A stretch of DNA of 51,116 bases from an uncultured Acidobacteriota bacterium. GTDB lineage: Bacteria > Acidobacteriota > Terriglobia > Terriglobales > Acidobacteriaceae. The notes under the pieces were generated by a model that had not been told where the DNA came from, did no database searches, and saw nothing but the letters and a program-made list of their open reading frames with translations. Positions 9,406 through 17,178 of this stretch are shown piece after piece. Location: assembly GCA_903851035.1 (NCBI GenBank), contig CAINND010000019.1:1-51116 (forward strand), in the 5' to 3' direction. The translations under genes and the position numbers were made by a program. Positions within the stretch are counted from its first letter, which is position 1, and each line of letters starts with the position of its first letter.

Positions 9406-11748
9406 TTATGTCGGAACCTTCAGTAGCAGATACCCACCCAGCAGGCCGAAGATGATATCCGAGCCCCACGCCGCCAGTGACGGCGGCAACTGGCTGGCGT
9501 TGCCCATTGCCTCAAAGAATCCGGCGGCCACAAAGTACACAATGGCCACGCCCAGCGCCACGGCGATGCCCGTCAGTGCGCCTTTGCGTCCTGAACTGAG
9601 CGAGAACGGCACGGCCAGCACGGCCATGATCAGCGTGATCACCGGGTAGGCGAACTTCTTCTGCAATTGCACGCGCAGCCGCACCACGTCAAAGCCGCTC
9701 TGCTGCAGGTCGGCGATGTAGTCGCGCAGCTCACTCGAACTCATCTCCTGGCTCTGGTGCACTTCCTTTTTGAAGTAGCCCGGCGGCTCCACCAGGTTGG
9801 GGAAGGTGCTGGCGTCAAACGTCTGGAAGCTCTGGATGGCCGAGCCGCGGAAGCTGCGCTGCCATCCTTGCTCAAACACCCACTTGCCCAGCTCCTGCGA
9901 CCAGTGCGCCCGCGAGGCGTGCACCCGCGAGGTCAGCTCAAAGGTTTTGGGATCGAAGCCGAAGACCGTGATGTTGCCAAAGCTGTTCTGGTCGGCGTCG
10001 AAAAATTCATAATAGTAAATATTGTCGTGCTCGCCGAAGATCCACTTCCGGTCCGGCCGCAGGTAGGTCTGCGCGGGCTTGCCCTTGATCTGGTTGCGCA
10101 GCGTCTCCTGGCGCTGGTTGGCCGCCGGGATGTAGTGCTCGTCAAAAAAGTACAGGGCTGAGCTCAGCATGGCGGCGATGATCAGGATGGGGAAGACCAC
10201 GCGGTAAATGCTGGTTCCGGTGGCCTTCATCGCCGTAATCTCGTTGCTCTTTTGCAGCAGGCCGATGGCGGTCAGCACGGCCAGCAGCACGCTCAGTGGC
10301 GCCATGGTGTAAATCATCTGCGGAGAAACATTCAGCAGGTATTCGCCCACCATCAGCATGGGAATGCGGTTGCGCACGATGTCGCTGAGCAGCTCAAAGA
10401 ACGTGAACACCAGCGTCAGCAGCAGAAACGACGTCAGGATCATCGCCAGGTATGTGGCAAAGTCGCGCAGGATGAGCTGATCGAGCAGCAGGGGATAGCC
10501 CAGGCTGAAGCGCGGCTTCTCCACCTTGGCGGCCTTGGCCTTCGCCTCCGGACTGGGTTGCAAGCGCTCGCGCAGCCCCGTCCACATGGTGCCCATCCAG
10601 CCAAAGTCCAGCACCGTGTGCTCCACCCGCCGCATCAGCACCATTCCCGCCAGCAGGAAAAATCCGTTGGCGGCCCACACGCCTACCCACGGAGCGATAC
10701 GCCCGCCGCGGCCCAGGCTGATGCCCGTCAGCGAGATGAAGTAGTAGAAAAACACGAGCACGATGGTGAGCACGAAGCCCATGCTCTTGCCGCCTTTTTT
10801 CGAACTCAACCCCAGCGGAATGCCGACCAGCGCCAGCACCAGGCAGCTTGTGGGCAGGGCCAGGCGGCGGTGGAACTCCACCAGGTACCAGCGCGCGCGC
10901 ACCGTGGGCGTGTCCTGCTTATTGCGCGGCTTGCCCAGGTTCGCCTCGGGATGATGGCCGCGGTACCAAAGCTCGCGCGTGCTCATCTCGCTCACCGGAA
11001 CCAGCTCGGGCTTGCCCTCGTCCGGGTTGGGAATCGCCATGGGCAGGTCCGTTTCAGCAAAGGTGCTGATCTGGTACTCCTCGGGCTTTTGCGGCTGCAC
11101 CTCCTGCTGCGAGCCGTGGCTCAGGTGCATGTGCAGGGCCGTGGGATCGTCGTTGACGATGATGCCGCTGCGCGCCACCGTGATCTTCGGTGCCGAGGGG
11201 TCGGTCACGTCGGCCAGGAAGACGCCCCTCCACTGCGCCGCGTTGGTGGTGGAGCGCACGTCCTCCACGTACAGCACGGTGTTTTTGAATTCCTCGTAAA
11301 AGACGCGCGGCTGGATTTCAAACGATGCCTGGGTGCTGACCAGCTTTCCCTGCAGCCGGCTCAGCGCGGCCGAACTGGCCGGCGCGATCCACACGCTGTT
11401 CACCACGGCCACCACCCAGGTTACGACCGCAAAGAAGGCCACAATGCGCACGAACATCCACGCGCCCAGTCCGCTGGCGCGCATGGCCGTCACCTCGCTG
11501 TCGGCGGCCAGCCGGCTCAATCCAATCAGGATGCCGACCAGCAATCCCATGGGGATGGTGATGGTGAAGGCAACGGGCAGGGTAAACAGGAAGAGTTCCA
11601 CCACGCTGGGTAGCGGCGCGCTGTCGCGCACCACGATCTCCAGCAGGCGGCCGAGGTCGCGCATGAAGATGACAAAGGTGAACAGGCCCATGCCCATGGC
11701 GGCATGCTGGATCACCTCGCTTAATATGTAGCGCGGGAATATCTTCAC
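9406..11748 (-). CDS. LptF-LptG fusion permease of the LPS export ABC system
   Basis: LptF and LptG are the two inner-membrane permease subunits that, with the LptB ATPase, lift LPS out of the membrane into the Lpt bridge. Here both are joined in one 780-residue chain. The first copy (about 1-385) starts IFPRYILSEVIQHAAMGMGLF and has the family's MGLLVGILIGLSRLAADSEVTAMRASG loop. A charged linker rich in Lys/Ala (about 400-430) leads to the second copy (about 435-780), with LILRDFATYLAMILTSFLLL and LQKSNEITAMKATG. Each half has the periplasmic jellyroll between helices 3 and 4. The start is GTG 11748; no good ribosome site is visible. lptB is not in the window. Confidence 0.93.
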   Translation of the reverse strand: MKIFPRYILSEVIQHAAMGMGLFTFVIFMRDLGRLLEIVVRDSAPLPSVVELFLFTLPVAFTITIPMGLLVGILIGLSRLAADSEVTAMRASGLGAWMFVRIVAFFAVVTWVVAVVNSVWIAPASSAALSRLQGKLVSTQASFEIQPRVFYEEFKNTVLYVEDVRSTTNAAQWRGVFLADVTDPSAPKITVARSGIIVNDDPTALHMHLSHGSQQEVQPQKPEEYQISTFAETDLPMAIPNPDEGKPELVPVSEMSTRELWYRGHHPEANLGKPRNKQDTPTVRARWYLVEFHRRLALPTSCLVLALVGIPLGLSSKKGGKSMGFVLTIVLVFFYYFISLTGISLGRGGRIAPWVGVWAANGFFLLAGMVLMRRVEHTVLDFGWMGTMWTGLRERLQPSPEAKAKAAKVEKPRFSLGYPLLLDQLILRDFATYLAMILTSFLLLTLVFTFFELLSDIVRNRIPMLMVGEYLLNVSPQMIYTMAPLSVLLAVLTAIGLLQKSNEITAMKATGTSIYRVVFPILIIAAMLSSALYFFDEHYIPAANQRQETLRNQIKGKPAQTYLRPDRKWIFGEHDNIYYYEFFDADQNSFGNITVFGFDPKTFELTSRVHASRAHWSQELGKWVFEQGWQRSFRGSAIQSFQTFDASTFPNLVEPPGYFKKEVHQSQEMSSSELRDYIADLQQSGFDVVRLRVQLQKKFAYPVITLIMAVLAVPFSLSSGRKGALTGIAVALGVAIVYFVAAGFFEAMGNASQLPPSLAAWGSDIIFGLLGGYLLLKVPT

Positions 11749-11889: not shown

Positions 11890-14115
11890 ATGGCGCAAGG
11901 CAGTATTCGACTTCTCTTTCTCTGGCACATGCACCAGCCCTTCTACAAGGACCTGGTCAGCGGTGAATACCGCATGCCCTGGGTGCGTCTGCACGCCCTC
12001 AAGGACTACTACGGCATGGTCAAGCTGCTGGAGGAGTTTCCCGGCGTCCACCAGAACTTCAACATCGTGCCCTCGCTGGTGGCGCAAATCGAAGATTACT
12101 GCTCCGGGCTCTTCAAGGATCCCTTCTGGGATGTGGCCGCTAAGCCGGCCGCCGGGCTCAACCCGCAGGAGCGCGCTTTTGCCCTCAGCTATCTCTTCCA
12201 GGCCCACGGCGAGCGCATGATCGGCCGCTATCCGCGTTATCGCCAGCTCTGGGAGCAGGTTCGCTCCGCCGGCCCCGACCCTTCCAAGGCCGCCATCACA
12301 TTCGGCGAGCGCGACTACCGCGACCTCCAGGTGCTCTCGCAGGTGGCATGGTTCGACGAGTACTTCCAGGACGATCCCGGCGTCAAAGCTCTCGTCGAAA
12401 AAGGCCAGGGCTTTAGCGAAGAAGACCAGCGCTTTGTCATGAGCAAGCAGCATGAGATTCTGAAATCTGTGCTGCCGGCCTACCGCGCGGCCGCCGCCCG
12501 CGGTGCCGTCGAGCTTTCGGCCACGCCCTACTATCACCCCATCCTGCCGCTGCTGTGTGACACCAATGCCGGGCGCGACTCCGTCCCCGGCCTCCCGCTG
12601 CCCAACGAGCGCTTCCGTCATCCCGGCGACGCCGAGGAGCAGATTCGCCGCGCGCTGGATACTCACGAGCGCACATTCGGCGTTCGCCCCACCGGCATGT
12701 GGCCCAGCGAAGGCTCGGTCAGTGACGAGGTTCTGTCCATTGCCGCCGGGCTGGGCGTCAAGTGGATGGCCACCGACGAAGGCGTGCTGGGGCGCAGCCT
12801 GGGCGAGGAATTCGCCCGCTCCGCCGAGGGATTGCTGAAGGCGCCCCAGGCGGCCAAGCTCTACAACATTCACCGCTGGCAGCAGAACGGCCAGCAGATG
12901 GACCTGGTCTTCCGCGATCACCGCATCAGCGACCTTGTCGGCTTTGTCTACGCAGGCATGGGCGCCCGCGAGGCCGCCGCCCACCTGATGAATAACATCC
13001 GCCTGGCCGCCGCCCCGCTCACCGACCAGGGCCGCGACGCCGTCGTGCCCGTCATTCTGGATGGCGAAAACGCCTGGGAGAGCTTTGAGAAGAACGGCCG
13101 CGACTTCCTCCGCCGCTTCTACGATTCGCTCCAGAAGGATTCACAGATCGAGCCCCTCACCATCAGCGAGGCCATCTCCCGCCAGCAGCCGGAGACCTTC
13201 GGCCCCCTGCGCGGCCTCGTCCCCGGCTCCTGGATCAACGCCAACTTCAACGTCTGGATCGGCGCGCCGGAGGACAATCGCAGTTGGGATTACCTCAGCC
13301 AGGCCCGCGACTTCTATGACGAAAATGCCGCCCAGGCCACCCCGGGGCAGCGCGCCCTCGCCTGGGAGGAGCTGCTTATCGCCGAAGGCAGCGACTGGAA
13401 CTGGTGGTACGGCCCCGAGCATCACTCGGCCAACGACCGCGACTTCGACGAGCTCTACCGCAAGCATCTCTCCAACGTCTACACCGCGCTCGGCGGCGTG
13501 CCGCCCGATCATCTCGCGCGGCCCATCAGTGGAGCGATCGCCCGCCCGGCCATGACGCCGCAGACGGCTTATGTGCACCCGGTCATTGACGGCCAAGTCA
13601 GCAGCTACTTCGACTGGATGGGCGCGGCTACCCTGGGCAGCGACCGCCGCGGCGGCAGCATGCATGGCCGTCTATACCTGCTGGATGCCCTGCACGCCGG
13701 CATTGACGAACACAATCTGTACGCACGCCTCGATTTCGCCTCCGCACTGCCCAAGGCGGACCTGCTGGCCACCTTGCACATGGCCCTGCGCCGTGGCGAG
13801 CAAACGCAGGCCAACCTGCAGTTGGAGATGACAATCGGGCAGGGCAGCATCACCTCATGGGAGTTGCGCAACGGTGTGCGCGCGCCGCTGGCCACCAACC
13901 TGGCGCCCAATGGCGTGGAGGCCGCGCACGGCCGCGTGCTGGAAGTAAAAATCCCCATGGCGCTGCTGGGCGCAACCACCGGCGATGCCTTCAACCTGCG
14001 CTTCGTCCTCTATCGCGACCACCTGCCCATGGACGCCCTGCCGCAGGAAGGCTCGCTGGAGATTCAGGTCGTGCCAGAGGATGTGCTCGTGGAATTGGCC
14101 TACGAAGCGAAGTAA
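11890..14115 (+). CDS. Glycoside hydrolase family 57 protein
   Basis: A retaining alpha-glucan enzyme of the GH57 amylase/branching type, 741 residues and without a signal peptide, so probably acting on cytoplasmic glycogen or maltodextrin. The family opening LLFLWHMHQPFYKD is present. The likely nucleophile is E274 in GMWPSEGSVSDEV and the likely acid/base D391 in VILDGENAWESF. WNWWYGPEHHSANDRDFDELYRKH and a C-terminal beta domain (about 555-735) follow, as in the longer COG1449-type proteins. ATCAGGA just upstream of ATG 11890 is the ribosome site, and CATAAT further upstream may be the -10. NikR follows after 27 nt, so the two may be co-transcribed. The exact substrate is not determinable. 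Confidence 0.9.
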   Translation: MAQGSIRLLFLWHMHQPFYKDLVSGEYRMPWVRLHALKDYYGMVKLLEEFPGVHQNFNIVPSLVAQIEDYCSGLFKDPFWDVAAKPAAGLNPQERAFALSYLFQAHGERMIGRYPRYRQLWEQVRSAGPDPSKAAITFGERDYRDLQVLSQVAWFDEYFQDDPGVKALVEKGQGFSEEDQRFVMSKQHEILKSVLPAYRAAAARGAVELSATPYYHPILPLLCDTNAGRDSVPGLPLPNERFRHPGDAEEQIRRALDTHERTFGVRPTGMWPSEGSVSDEVLSIAAGLGVKWMATDEGVLGRSLGEEFARSAEGLLKAPQAAKLYNIHRWQQNGQQMDLVFRDHRISDLVGFVYAGMGAREAAAHLMNNIRLAAAPLTDQGRDAVVPVILDGENAWESFEKNGRDFLRRFYDSLQKDSQIEPLTISEAISRQQPETFGPLRGLVPGSWINANFNVWIGAPEDNRSWDYLSQARDFYDENAAQATPGQRALAWEELLIAEGSDWNWWYGPEHHSANDRDFDELYRKHLSNVYTALGGVPPDHLARPISGAIARPAMTPQTAYVHPVIDGQVSSYFDWMGAATLGSDRRGGSMHGRLYLLDALHAGIDEHNLYARLDFASALPKADLLATLHMALRRGEQTQANLQLEMTIGQGSITSWELRNGVRAPLATNLAPNGVEAAHGRVLEVKIPMALLGATTGDAFNLRFVLYRDHLPMDALPQEGSLEIQVVPEDVLVELAYEAK

Positions 14116-14142: not shown

Positions 14143-14556
14143 ATGGCCGACCTCATCCGTACCGGCGTTTCCATTGAATCTGATCTGCTGGAAAAGTTTG
14201 ACAAGCTCATTGAGCGGCGCGGCTACGGCAACCGCTCGGAGGCTCTCCGCGATCTCATTCGCGAGGCGCTGGTCAACGATAAGGTCAGCGAGAATCGCCC
14301 CGTCGTCGCCACCCTCTCCATGGTCTATGACCATCACCGCCCGGAGCTTTCCGCCAAGCTCAACGCCGCGCAGCACCACCACCACGGCAATGTGCTGGCC
14401 GCCACCCACGTCCACCTGGACGAGCACAACTGCTTCGAGGTCATCATCATGAAGGGCAAGTCCAATGAGGTAAAACACCTCTCCGACCACATGCTCAGCA
14501 TGAGGGGCGTCAAGCATGGCAAGCTGGTGATGACCTCCACGGACGGGGATTTCTAG
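14143..14556 (+). CDS. nikR: Nickel-responsive regulator NikR
   Basis: NikR is a tetrameric ribbon-helix-helix repressor that binds DNA when loaded with nickel. The 137-residue protein has the RHH domain at 1-45 (LIRTGVSIESDLLEKFDKLI, then RSEALRDLIREAL) and an ACT-like metal domain at 50-137. The square-planar nickel ligands of E. coli NikR (H76, H87, H89, C95) align with H78, H89, H91 and C97 here, in AAQHHHHG and THVHLDEHNC. AAGGAG lies about 9 nt before the ATG. It is immediately upstream of a TonB-dependent receptor gene, separated by a gap containing palindromes, which suggests that the receptor is a target. Confidence 0.95.
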   Translation: MADLIRTGVSIESDLLEKFDKLIERRGYGNRSEALRDLIREALVNDKVSENRPVVATLSMVYDHHRPELSAKLNAAQHHHHGNVLAATHVHLDEHNCFEVIIMKGKSNEVKHLSDHMLSMRGVKHGKLVMTSTDGDF

Positions 14557-14573
14557 GCAGCCCGGCATCGGCC

Positions 14574-14612
14574 CGTATAGCGCATACGAAAAATGAAATA
14601 ATATGCGGCATA
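14574..14612. promoter_or_regulatory. Overlapping palindromes between nikR and the receptor gene, candidate operator
   Basis: Three inverted repeats overlap in this AT-rich stretch: CGTAT (14574-14578) with ATACG (14584-14588), CGCATA (14581-14586) with TATGCG (14602-14607), and TATGC (14602-14606) with GCATA (14608-14612). They lie 70-110 nt before the receptor ATG, a reasonable operator position. They do not match the E. coli NikR operator spacing (two hexamers 16 nt apart), so binding by NikR is inference. Confidence 0.35.
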
Positions 14613-14682
14613 CTTATTGCAAAATCGTGTTACCGATGAAATAATCTTCCTGCGTCCTTTCAGCCAGGGAGATTTATCGCTC

Positions 14683-17178
14683 ATGCACCTCCGGTCGTCT
14701 CTCCTCGCGATCTTTCTTCTCCCCGGCATCCTGTCTGCGCAGCAGGCCACACTCAATGCTCACCAGCACCTCTCCGGAACCATCGTTGACACATCGGGCG
14801 CGGTCATTCCCGGTGCCAGCGTGCAACTTCGCGGCGCGAATGGCTCCGTCCAGGCGAAGATCCGCTCAGACGCCAAAGGCTCCTTCGTTATCCCCGGACT
14901 CGTGGCCGGCAATTTTCAACTCGCCGTGTCTGCCCCCGGCTTTGAGGCCAAAGTAAGTTCCATCACCATCGCTGCCGCCCTTGCATCGGCCCCGCTGCGC
15001 ATCACCCTGGCAGTGGCTGCCGTCAGCGCCAGCATCAACGTGCAGGGCCGCGCCGATGACCTCATCGGCATCGCCGCCTCCGCTACGCAGGGCACGGTGG
15101 GCGCCACGGAGATCGAAGAGCGCCCGATGCTTCGTTCCGGAGAAGTTCTGGAGGCGGTTCCCGGCGTCATCATCACGCAGCACGCCGGCGGCGGCAAAGC
15201 CAACCAGTACTTTGTTCGCGGCTTCAACCTCGACCACGGCACGGACATCGCCATCTTCCTGGACGACATGCCGCTGAACCTGCCTTCGCACGCGCACGGC
15301 GAGGGCTACTCAGACATGAACACCGTCATCCCGGAGTTCGTGAATGGCGTCAGTTACGAGAAGGGCCCGTATTCCGCCGAGGTCGGCAACTTCAGCTCAG
15401 CGGCCTCCGCCCATATGGAATTCTTCAAGACGTTGCCGGAAAACTTTGTCCAGGTCGAAGGTGGCAACTTCGGCTTTGGACGCACCGTCTTCGGCGTCTC
15501 GCAAAAACTTGGCAAGGGCAACCTGCTCTACGGCGGAGAGGCTTATCACGACAACGGCCCCTGGACGACGCATGAAGACAATTTCTTCAAGTACAACGGC
15601 CTGCTCACCTACAGTCAGGGTTCGGACGACCGTGGCTTCAGCATCACCTCCCGCGCCTACCGTGGCACATGGCACTCCAGCGATCAGATCCCAGTGGACG
15701 CCATCCCGCTGGTGGGCTACTTAGGCACGCTGAACCCAACCGATGGTGGCACATCGCAGCGCTACAGCCTGCAGTCGGAGTGGCACCGCCGCCGCGCCAA
15801 CTCCGAGACGAAGATTTCAGCCTTCGGTTTTTATTACGACCTCAATCTGTTCTCTGATTTCACCTACTACCTGATTGATCCCAACAAGGGCGATCAGTTC
15901 GAGCAGCAGGACCGCCGCTGGGTGGCTGGCTTTGACCTTCACCACAAAATTTTCAGCCATTGGTTAGGCCGCCGGGTAGAAAACACCTTGGGCCTCCAGC
16001 TTCGCAACGATTGGGTGCACAACGGACTTTTCCGTACGGAAGAACGCTCGCGCACCGACAAGAATGACATCAACGCCTGCAACGATCAGCCCATCCCTCA
16101 GTGCGGCACCATTCCGAACCTCACGGCCACTCTGCCCGCGGCCACGGATTTGAATCGGTTTACGGACACGATAGGTAGTGTCTACTTCGAAAACAAAATC
16201 CAGTGGACGAGCAAGTTCCGCTCCGTGCTGGCCCTGCGCGGAGACGAAGCTAAGTATGTCGTCACCAACCTGACTCCCACTTATTTCTCTCCATTGTTCG
16301 GCTCGGTCAACTTTCGGCAGCTCAACTCCGGCTCGGCCACCAAGTTCCTGCCCAGCCCCAAAGCAACTTTGATTTACGCTCTCTCGCCCAGGACGGAGTT
16401 CTATCTACAGGGCGGATTCAGCTTCCACAGCAACGACGCGCGTGGCGCAGCGCAAAAGGCGGAGCCGATTTCGCCGGACTATCCATTCCCCACCGCCACC
16501 ACGCCAATCACTCCCCTGGTGCAGACCAAGGGCGGGGAAGTGGGCGTGCGCACCTCGGTCGTTCCCCATCTGCAAAGCACCCTTGCGCTCTGGTATCTGC
16601 ACAGCAACTCCGAGCTGATGCAGGATGGCGATACCGGCGGCACCTCGGCCTCCGATCAGTCCAGCAACCGCTATGGCATTGAATGGGCCAATTACTACGC
16701 GCCCGTCGAACATCTGTCGTTTGATTTCGATATTGCCGACTCCCGCGCGCAATTTACGCAGGTAGATCCGGCCGACGCGGCCTACATCAACGTGTCTGGC
16801 CATTATCCTGTGCAGCTTCCGGGTGGCAAGCTGGTGCCGGAGGCGGTCAAGCTGGTCGTCTCCGCCGGTGCCACGCTACACCAGTACAAGGGCTTTACGG
16901 CCACTCTGCGCCTGCGCTACTTTGGCCCGCGTGAGCTGACCTCGGATGGAATCAACCGCTCGGCGGCTACCACACTGGTCAACGCCAGCGTTGGCTACCA
17001 GTTCAGCAGGAAGTGGGGCATTACGGCAGAAGCATTGAATTTGCTGAACCGCAAAGCAGATGACATCACCTACGCCTACATCTCCCGGATCACGCCAGCC
17101 GCCAACCCGGAATTCACAAACGTATCGCACCCTACCGAGCCGTTCCAGGTGCGCTTTGCCTTGCGCTACCGCTTCTAG
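14683..17178 (+). CDS. TonB-dependent outer-membrane receptor, candidate nickel receptor
   Basis: An 831-residue outer-membrane receptor. The signal peptide ends near ILSAQQA. A carboxypeptidase-regulatory-like domain (about 25-110, LSGTIVDTSGAVIPGASVQL) precedes the plug (about 130-260). The plug has VLEAVPGVIITQHAGGGKAN, FVRGFNLDHGTDIAIFLDD and the unusual LPSHAHGEGYSDMN, and the 22-strand barrel ends in the terminal aromatic RYRF. ATG 14683 gives a clean signal peptide and has AGGGAG upstream; the frame is open to 14617, but that start would put charged residues ahead of the signal. The adjacent nikR and the His-containing plug motif suggest nickel or a nickel chelate, which is inference. 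A terminator follows at 17209. Confidence 0.88.
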   Translation: MHLRSSLLAIFLLPGILSAQQATLNAHQHLSGTIVDTSGAVIPGASVQLRGANGSVQAKIRSDAKGSFVIPGLVAGNFQLAVSAPGFEAKVSSITIAAALASAPLRITLAVAAVSASINVQGRADDLIGIAASATQGTVGATEIEERPMLRSGEVLEAVPGVIITQHAGGGKANQYFVRGFNLDHGTDIAIFLDDMPLNLPSHAHGEGYSDMNTVIPEFVNGVSYEKGPYSAEVGNFSSAASAHMEFFKTLPENFVQVEGGNFGFGRTVFGVSQKLGKGNLLYGGEAYHDNGPWTTHEDNFFKYNGLLTYSQGSDDRGFSITSRAYRGTWHSSDQIPVDAIPLVGYLGTLNPTDGGTSQRYSLQSEWHRRRANSETKISAFGFYYDLNLFSDFTYYLIDPNKGDQFEQQDRRWVAGFDLHHKIFSHWLGRRVENTLGLQLRNDWVHNGLFRTEERSRTDKNDINACNDQPIPQCGTIPNLTATLPAATDLNRFTDTIGSVYFENKIQWTSKFRSVLALRGDEAKYVVTNLTPTYFSPLFGSVNFRQLNSGSATKFLPSPKATLIYALSPRTEFYLQGGFSFHSNDARGAAQKAEPISPDYPFPTATTPITPLVQTKGGEVGVRTSVVPHLQSTLALWYLHSNSELMQDGDTGGTSASDQSSNRYGIEWANYYAPVEHLSFDFDIADSRAQFTQVDPADAAYINVSGHYPVQLPGGKLVPEAVKLVVSAGATLHQYKGFTATLRLRYFGPRELTSDGINRSAATTLVNASVGYQFSRKWGITAEALNLLNRKADDITYAYISRITPAANPEFTNVSHPTEPFQVRFALRYRF

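Follow-up and report, generated by a model that had tools for sequence, protein, structure and literature searches.

A 51,116-nucleotide stretch of DNA from an uncultured member of the Acidobacteriaceae (GenBank assembly GCA_903851035.1, contig CAINND010000019.1), referred to here as the window, harbours a gene for the nickel-responsive repressor NikR, followed by a gene for a TonB-dependent receptor that is predicted to import nickel. Both genes run in the same direction and are separated by a gap of 126 bp, within which two abutting repeats form putative NikR binding sites, hereafter NikR boxes. The features of the locus are collected in Table 1.

Table 1. Features of the nikR–receptor locus (positions are those of the window; ORF, open reading frame)
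Feature	Position	Strand	Basis or remark
GH57-family glycoside hydrolase	11890..14115	+	Pfam Glyco_hydro_57 3e-54; ends 27 bp before nikR
nikR, nickel-responsive ribbon-helix-helix repressor, 137 aa	14143..14556	+	ORF, domain searches, alignment; ligands H78, H89, H91, C97
NikR box 1 (predicted), CGCATAC-N13-ATATGCG	14581..14607		score 13; equals the first palindrome of the first-pass annotation
NikR box 2 (predicted), GGCATAC-N13-GTGTTAC	14607..14633		score 14; best conserved site
Promoter-like TTGCAA-N17-AATAAT	14617..14645	+	consensus match only; overlapped by box 2
TonB-dependent receptor, 831 aa, predicted nickel importer	14683..17178	+	ORF, Pfam, alignment, structure model
N-terminal carboxypeptidase-regulatory-like domain, residues 30-109	14770..15009	+	domain search
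Plug domain, residues 138-240	15094..15402	+	domain search
SHAHGEGYSDMN motif of plug, residues 202-213	15286..15321	+	alignment; H205 invariant

Repressor, receptor and intergenic repeats

Domain searches of the nikR product find Pfam NikR_C (E 7e-29) and the RHH_1 DNA-binding domain, and the NCBIfam NikR equivalogs are matched, with NF003381 scoring 185.6 bits (cut-off 105) and TIGR02793 133.8 bits, the latter being under its own cut-off of 175.45. Alignment to PDB 1q5v places H78, H89, H91 and C97 opposite H76, H87, H89 and C95 of Escherichia coli NikR, respectively, which we take to be the four nickel ligands of that protein, and the R-x-G-x-S/A residues are present in the N-terminal strand. 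The 3.26-Mb genome has no other NikR_C match. The pairing proposed in the first-pass annotation, of a NikR possessing all four nickel ligands with a TonB-dependent receptor behind it, is thus borne out by ORFs, domains and ligand alignment alike.

The receptor carries the Pfam domains CarboxypepD_reg, Plug and TonB_dep_Rec, and its closest relatives stem from records titled Acidobacteriaceae. Its structure model (predicted local distance difference test 77, predicted template modelling score 0.73) matches 465 PDB chains at E ≤ 0.001 in a structure search, PqqU/YncD being the best, and among the matches listed (50 of the 465) all are TonB-receptor entries; as modelled, the protein adopts a generic TonB-receptor fold that is silent on specificity. 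A PDB search by sequence returns only one adhesin and, over residues 148-277, weak matches to BtuB. An alternative start at TTG 14617 was rejected in favour of ATG 14683, as the former falls inside box 2 and would place that box within the gene. The plug motif contains the string SHAHG, of which H205 is invariant in 28 aligned sequences and S202, H203, A204 and G206 are nearly so (locus L026, whose receptor begins off-contig, was excluded from alignments); previously called unusual, it is instead a hallmark of the family. The corresponding position in 17 plasmid-borne relatives, described below, reads THAHG or THGHG in 12 and THVHG or SNAHG in two, whilst in three an SHAHG-type string was not matched using one search string.

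Both repeats in the gap measure 27 bp and have a 7-N13-7 arrangement, with base 14607 common to the two and TATGCGGCATA forming their junction; this repeat unit was recognised by reading the upstream regions of relatives side by side. The overlapping palindromes described in the first-pass annotation, CGCATA-N15-TATGCG (14581-14607) and TATGC-G-GCATA (14602-14612), do exist, but are only parts of the two abutting boxes. The former was considered as the whole operator and rejected, as it has a single occurrence in the genome and represents one box of two. It is the only exact CGCATA-N13..17-TATGCG there, a rarity that by itself proves nothing, since the backwards pattern occurs twice; it is the conservation of the site that carries weight. 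An E. coli-type operator, GTATGA-N16-TCATAC, was not seen in the gap when read by eye, in agreement with the earlier statement that the palindromes differ from it. The gap is AT-richer than its neighbours (46% GC), and its promoter-like site is the one found where 0.3 are expected in shuffles.

A comparable signal is described for delta-proteobacterial NikR (Rodionov et al. 2004, PMC545781). That signal, GTGTTAC-N13/14-GTAACAC, is also given in reversed form, GTAACAC-N13-GTGTTAC, for Desulfotalea, and nikK of D. vulgaris has a site resembling the latter. The window boxes share with it a 27-bp inverted repeat, a 13-bp spacer and near-identical half-sites, the right half of box 2 being the published GTGTTAC itself, and a site in a related genome (G030) equals the reversed form in both halves. 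The half-site GTRNYAC is nearly self-symmetric, and the flip of orientation may thereby be explained. Nickel ABC-transporter genes are targets in both cases. Unlike the delta-proteobacterial sites, those of the window abut, their left half reads GCATAC in the window's own genus, and they are directed at the gene of an outer-membrane receptor.

Conservation and distribution of the box

Where a locus is counted if a site scoring at least 12 lies at the start of the receptor or of the neighbouring nikR, a box is present in 15 of the 18 loci of acidobacterial receptors (the window, L017-L023, L032, L038, L048, L056, L060, L061 and L063), with L022 and L056 counted on weak score-12 sites only. As for the three boxless loci, the receptor start is off the contig in L026, the receptor of L034 displays 37% identity, and L062 belongs to a genome, G033, without a NikR match. 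Sites at the offset of box 1 also occur in L061 (score 13), L060 and L023 (both score 12). In the receptor tree, the 15 box-bearing acidobacterial receptors and that of L062 form one group with support 100/100, and no box lies upstream of the receptor in the 11 other relatives among the 22 named loci, whose labels are those of the record titles.

The spacing is similarly constrained: with a spacer of 13, score 13 is attained in 15 of 45 upstream regions, and with any other spacer from 5 to 25 in at most one, although the half-site list was derived from 13-spaced sites and the test is not fully independent. The 517 kb of loci contain 22 sites that score 13 (12 sites) or 14 (10 sites), where ten first-order Markov shuffles average 0.6 and 0, respectively; score-12 sites are weak, with 23 seen versus 12.4 in the shuffles. 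Given this conservation of the box in sequence and position across genomes, including at orthologous receptors, it is scarcely credible that the repeats are palindromes arisen by chance in an AT-rich stretch flanked by unrelated genes, even though the gap is indeed AT-richer than its surroundings, score-12 sites do arise by chance and the first palindrome has its two backwards counterparts in the genome.

Box and receptor are also found together where nikR lies elsewhere. In the same-genus genome G046, a double box precedes the receptor (77% identical) and nikR is on another contig; as the ORF start called by the script lay too far upstream here, the aligned start of L061 was used. A second same-genus genome, G103, retains the GH57-nikR pair with no receptor next to it. 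From these arrangements, control of the receptor in trans is plausible. Also in G103, two NikR-type boxes (L098:6849-6907) precede a dissimilar TonB receptor that BLAST does not match to that of the window at 1e-4. Separately, nikR adjoins more remote receptors (26-31% identity) that share this type of box in G083, G071 and G089 (L049, L051 and L054), and several receptor types may, on this evidence, be under NikR. Matches to NikR are partial for the protein adjoining the L032 receptor (residues 77-133) and for G002.

The distribution of the box was further assessed in 120 genomes of the window's family, 15 with NikR and 105 without. The exact form GTARYAC-N13-GTRYTAC is present in seven of the 120, comprising 6/15 genomes with NikR and 1/105 without (Fisher 9e-6, the genomes being related and p-values thus not from independent trials); when the pattern was drawn up, the sites of two of the six, G030 and G083, were already known. 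Its backwards control is found in 3/15 and 11/105. Seven distinct sites of this form occur in the genomes with NikR, and five of them are nickel- or receptor-related: a box precedes nikMQO in G084 and G009 and nikR-nikMQO in G030, in G083 a site lies between nikR and the receptor, and in G103 one lies, together with a second box, before the dissimilar TonB receptor mentioned above. The two that are unexplained are in G089:C261 and G103:C82. Good NikR-type boxes with targets not obviously nickel-related are located at G103:C82:72268, G103:C46:53173 and G089:C261:20259, all in genomes with NikR.

For the GCATAC form, present in 4/15 genomes with NikR and 6/105 without (p 0.02), the backwards control gives 4/15 and 24/105, so that the count alone is weak, and position is more telling. 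In genomes lacking NikR, five of six matches fall within ORFs and the other overlaps the start of one; in those possessing it, five of seven precede family receptors, with one inside an ORF and one unexplained. The window's own genome has only two exact GYATAC-N13-GTGYTAY sites, one of them box 2, against about 0.36 expected, but this pattern was written after both had been seen and the cross-genome tests are fairer. The second of these sites precedes a second receptor of the family (G000:C93:84871-87288, 64% identical). Box matches with one and two mismatches in the same genome were set aside, the backwards control being higher (92 and 114 versus 42 and 55).

Another regulator, for example of the Fur/Zur type, with nikR as a chance neighbour, appears very unlikely to be what binds the boxes. 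In its favour, nikR and receptor are apart in two same-genus genomes and no box precedes nikR in the window. The exact palindromic boxes, however, track the presence of NikR, precede nikMQO and match the published NikR signal together with its 27-bp geometry (PMC545781), and the receptor of NikR-less G033 (L062) has only a poor site, with a best score of 11.

The receptor family and its genomic neighbours

Members of the receptor family are found in contigs labelled Acidobacteriota, Verrucomicrobiota, Pseudomonadota and Thermodesulfobacteriota. A nikR gene is in the locus in six of the 22 named loci, all of them acidobacterial-labelled (6/11 such loci, with the L032 match being partial). Plasmids contribute 59 matching records; 17 of the best 25, from Pseudomonadota, were examined, eight presumed duplicates (same species or score) being skipped, and five of the 17 stretches are unannotated and were judged by tblastn only. 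A nickel neighbour, namely nikR, hoxN or hydrogenase, is present in nine of the 17. This includes six with nikR within about 2 kb, from Afipia (beside a hyp cluster), Paraburkholderia (with hoxN), Methylomagnum, Comamonadaceae, Novosphingobium and Polymorphobacter, and three more with hoxN and/or hydrogenase within about 6 kb, from C. necator pHG1 and two Bradyrhizobium.

Not all relatives have nickel genes for neighbours. That of L029 (Syntrophobacteraceae-labelled) lies beside ZnuA, an ABC ATPase and ABC-3, that of L027 beside an ABC-3 permease, and in Methylomagnum (L138, named as Znu-linked along with L027 and L029) annotated zinc ABC genes adjoin the nikR-receptor pair; one further relative is near iron-ABC and cobalamin genes. 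Zinc or mixed specificity of the family is possible from the Znu-type neighbours, and the receptor of the window could conceivably be NikR-regulated yet mainly carry a different metal or complex, be it zinc, cobalt or a metallophore complex, with nickel as the signal only or as one cargo. This is nonetheless judged improbable: the close relatives carry NikR-type boxes and have no Znu-type gene among their annotated neighbours, nickel neighbours occur in the nine plasmid records above, and other relatives have HupE/UreJ next to them or in frame with them. In the receptor tree, the Znu-linked and HupE-linked members are outside the box-bearing group. A tie of homologues to another substrate, which, if consistent, the first-pass annotation had named as grounds for abandoning a nickel role, is seen for a few distant relatives and for none of the close ones annotated.

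Two of the HupE-linked members come from metagenome-assembled genomes, one labelled Pedosphaera (L025:830-3574) and the other Methylomicrobium (L030:3359-5974). Each is encoded in a single frame downstream of a HupE/UreJ nickel/cobalt permease domain (Pfam E 4e-46 and 1e-49, respectively), and by eye the last membrane segment of the fused permease ends in signal-peptidase-like residues. These frames look as if they encode a polyprotein that is cut into permease and receptor. In Methylococcales-labelled L033, the receptor gene comes immediately after HupE/UreJ, with a further TonB receptor and ABC-2 transporter genes behind it, an order that recalls Caulobacter znuK-znuGHI; judged by BLAST clusters, the genes of L037 are arranged alike.

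Amongst known systems, FrpB4 and FecA3 of Helicobacter pylori are NikR-repressed nickel receptors (PMC5385501, PMC7055735), so that the precedent invoked in the first-pass annotation stands. The likeness is functional, a TonB receptor gene under (here predicted) NikR control, and does not come from sequence; the H. pylori operator, an AT-rich dyad of TRTTA and TAWTA 15 nt apart (PMC5385501), differs from the window boxes. A table in PMC7142613 marks FrpB4 alone as experimental and lists the proteobacterial Bll6948 and Daro_3944 as predicted nickel TonB receptors, and further predictions concern Ni/Co receptors (PMC2771747, region VIII / cluster 52) and nickel receptors in Proteobacteria (PMC11247825). 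Like Bll6948 and Daro_3944, the window receptor is TonB-dependent and linked to nickel, in this case via relatives (36-39% identity) that in Bradyrhizobium, Afipia, Cupriavidus and others have nikR, hoxN or hydrogenase genes as neighbours. Unlike them, it is from another phylum and has the extra N-terminal CarboxypepD_reg domain. The zinc receptors ZnuK and ZnuL of Caulobacter, belonging to the Zur/zinc regulon (PMC4176598), are, by description, likewise metal-regulated TonB receptors for a transition metal, but their box differs from that of the window. Among the papers listed in searches of the open-licence literature, none was on NikR-controlled receptors in Acidobacteria, their box or the double operator.

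With regard to other nickel genes, the first-pass annotation had reported no nickel permease, hydrogenase or urease in the window. Elsewhere, the genome encodes NikMQO and, at full length, the large subunit of a [NiFe] hydrogenase, along with a maturation protease, whilst HupE/UreJ, NicO and urease-alpha have no match at E 0.001. Among the 120 genomes, in tallies made by hand from match lists, CbiM/NikM is found in 7/15 genomes with NikR and 4/105 without, hydrogenase (best E ≤ 1e-39) in 11/15 and 28/105, and the receptor (E ≤ 1e-100) in 5/15 and 1/105.

The genes nearest the pair, as domain-searched, encode GH57, NikR, DUF4382/DUF5666 and PIG-L proteins. The GH57 gene is possibly co-transcribed with nikR, and the same order is displayed by G103 (L058), in which the receptor does not adjoin. 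Further upstream, a 780-aa ORF on the opposite strand (9406-11748) appears, by eye, to be two LptF/LptG-type permeases fused in one protein.

A candidate nickel-homeostasis unit

Taken as a whole, the sequence evidence makes it very likely that nikR and the receptor gene form a nickel-homeostasis unit, in which a nickel importer is repressed by Ni-NikR. The reading of the first-pass annotation, that of NikR-controlled nickel uptake, is supported in so far as the box recurs at orthologous receptors or nikR and at nikMQO, and the family occurs beside nickel genes. The predicted operator is situated at the putative receptor promoter, and as box 2 overlaps the promoter-like site, repression by occlusion is the simplest model. 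When cytoplasmic nickel is ample, Ni-NikR would bind both abutting boxes (14581-14633) and cover the promoter, turning the receptor off; when nickel is scarce, NikR would release and the receptor would be made. Drawing on TonB for energy, the receptor would then bring nickel, probably in complexed form, through the outer membrane, the second family receptor of the genome being controlled likewise in trans. Nickel would cross the inner membrane, probably via NikMQO, and supply the [NiFe] hydrogenase.

Several observations weigh against this interpretation. No box precedes nikR itself in the window (score scan), nor is there a good one at nikMQO of this genome, G046 or G103 (best score 9 in the stretches scored). 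Eight of the 17 plasmid loci have no nickel neighbour within ±7 kb, and the Znu-type neighbours of L027, L029 and Methylomagnum leave room for zinc or mixed specificity. In L020, L021, L022 and L056, the site near the receptor is inside the ORF start as called, implying either that the true start is downstream or that this is not a promoter site there. The GCATAC form is weak on its counts in view of the backwards control, and the patterns were partly built from the same loci. Lastly, G103 has NikR, NikM and the receptor without a full hydrogenase match, and hydrogenase is present in the 28 genomes without NikR noted above.

A broader picture is offered tentatively, and is perhaps doubtful in its entirety. 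Acidobacterial NikR may act through outward-facing, self-symmetric GTRNYAC half-sites and abutting double operators on a dispersed regulon of several receptor types that scavenge nickel at the outer membrane and feed the hydrogenases of soil bacteria, and in other phyla the same receptor may be made as one polypeptide with a HupE inner-membrane permease and cut by signal peptidase.

Few outer-membrane nickel receptors are proven. The locus described here would extend to Acidobacteria a nickel-uptake system that has been predicted or suspected in other bacteria, and it provides both a testable NikR box and a widespread receptor family whose substrate is directly testable. For those Acidobacteria that use hydrogenases, it suggests a route by which nickel may be acquired.

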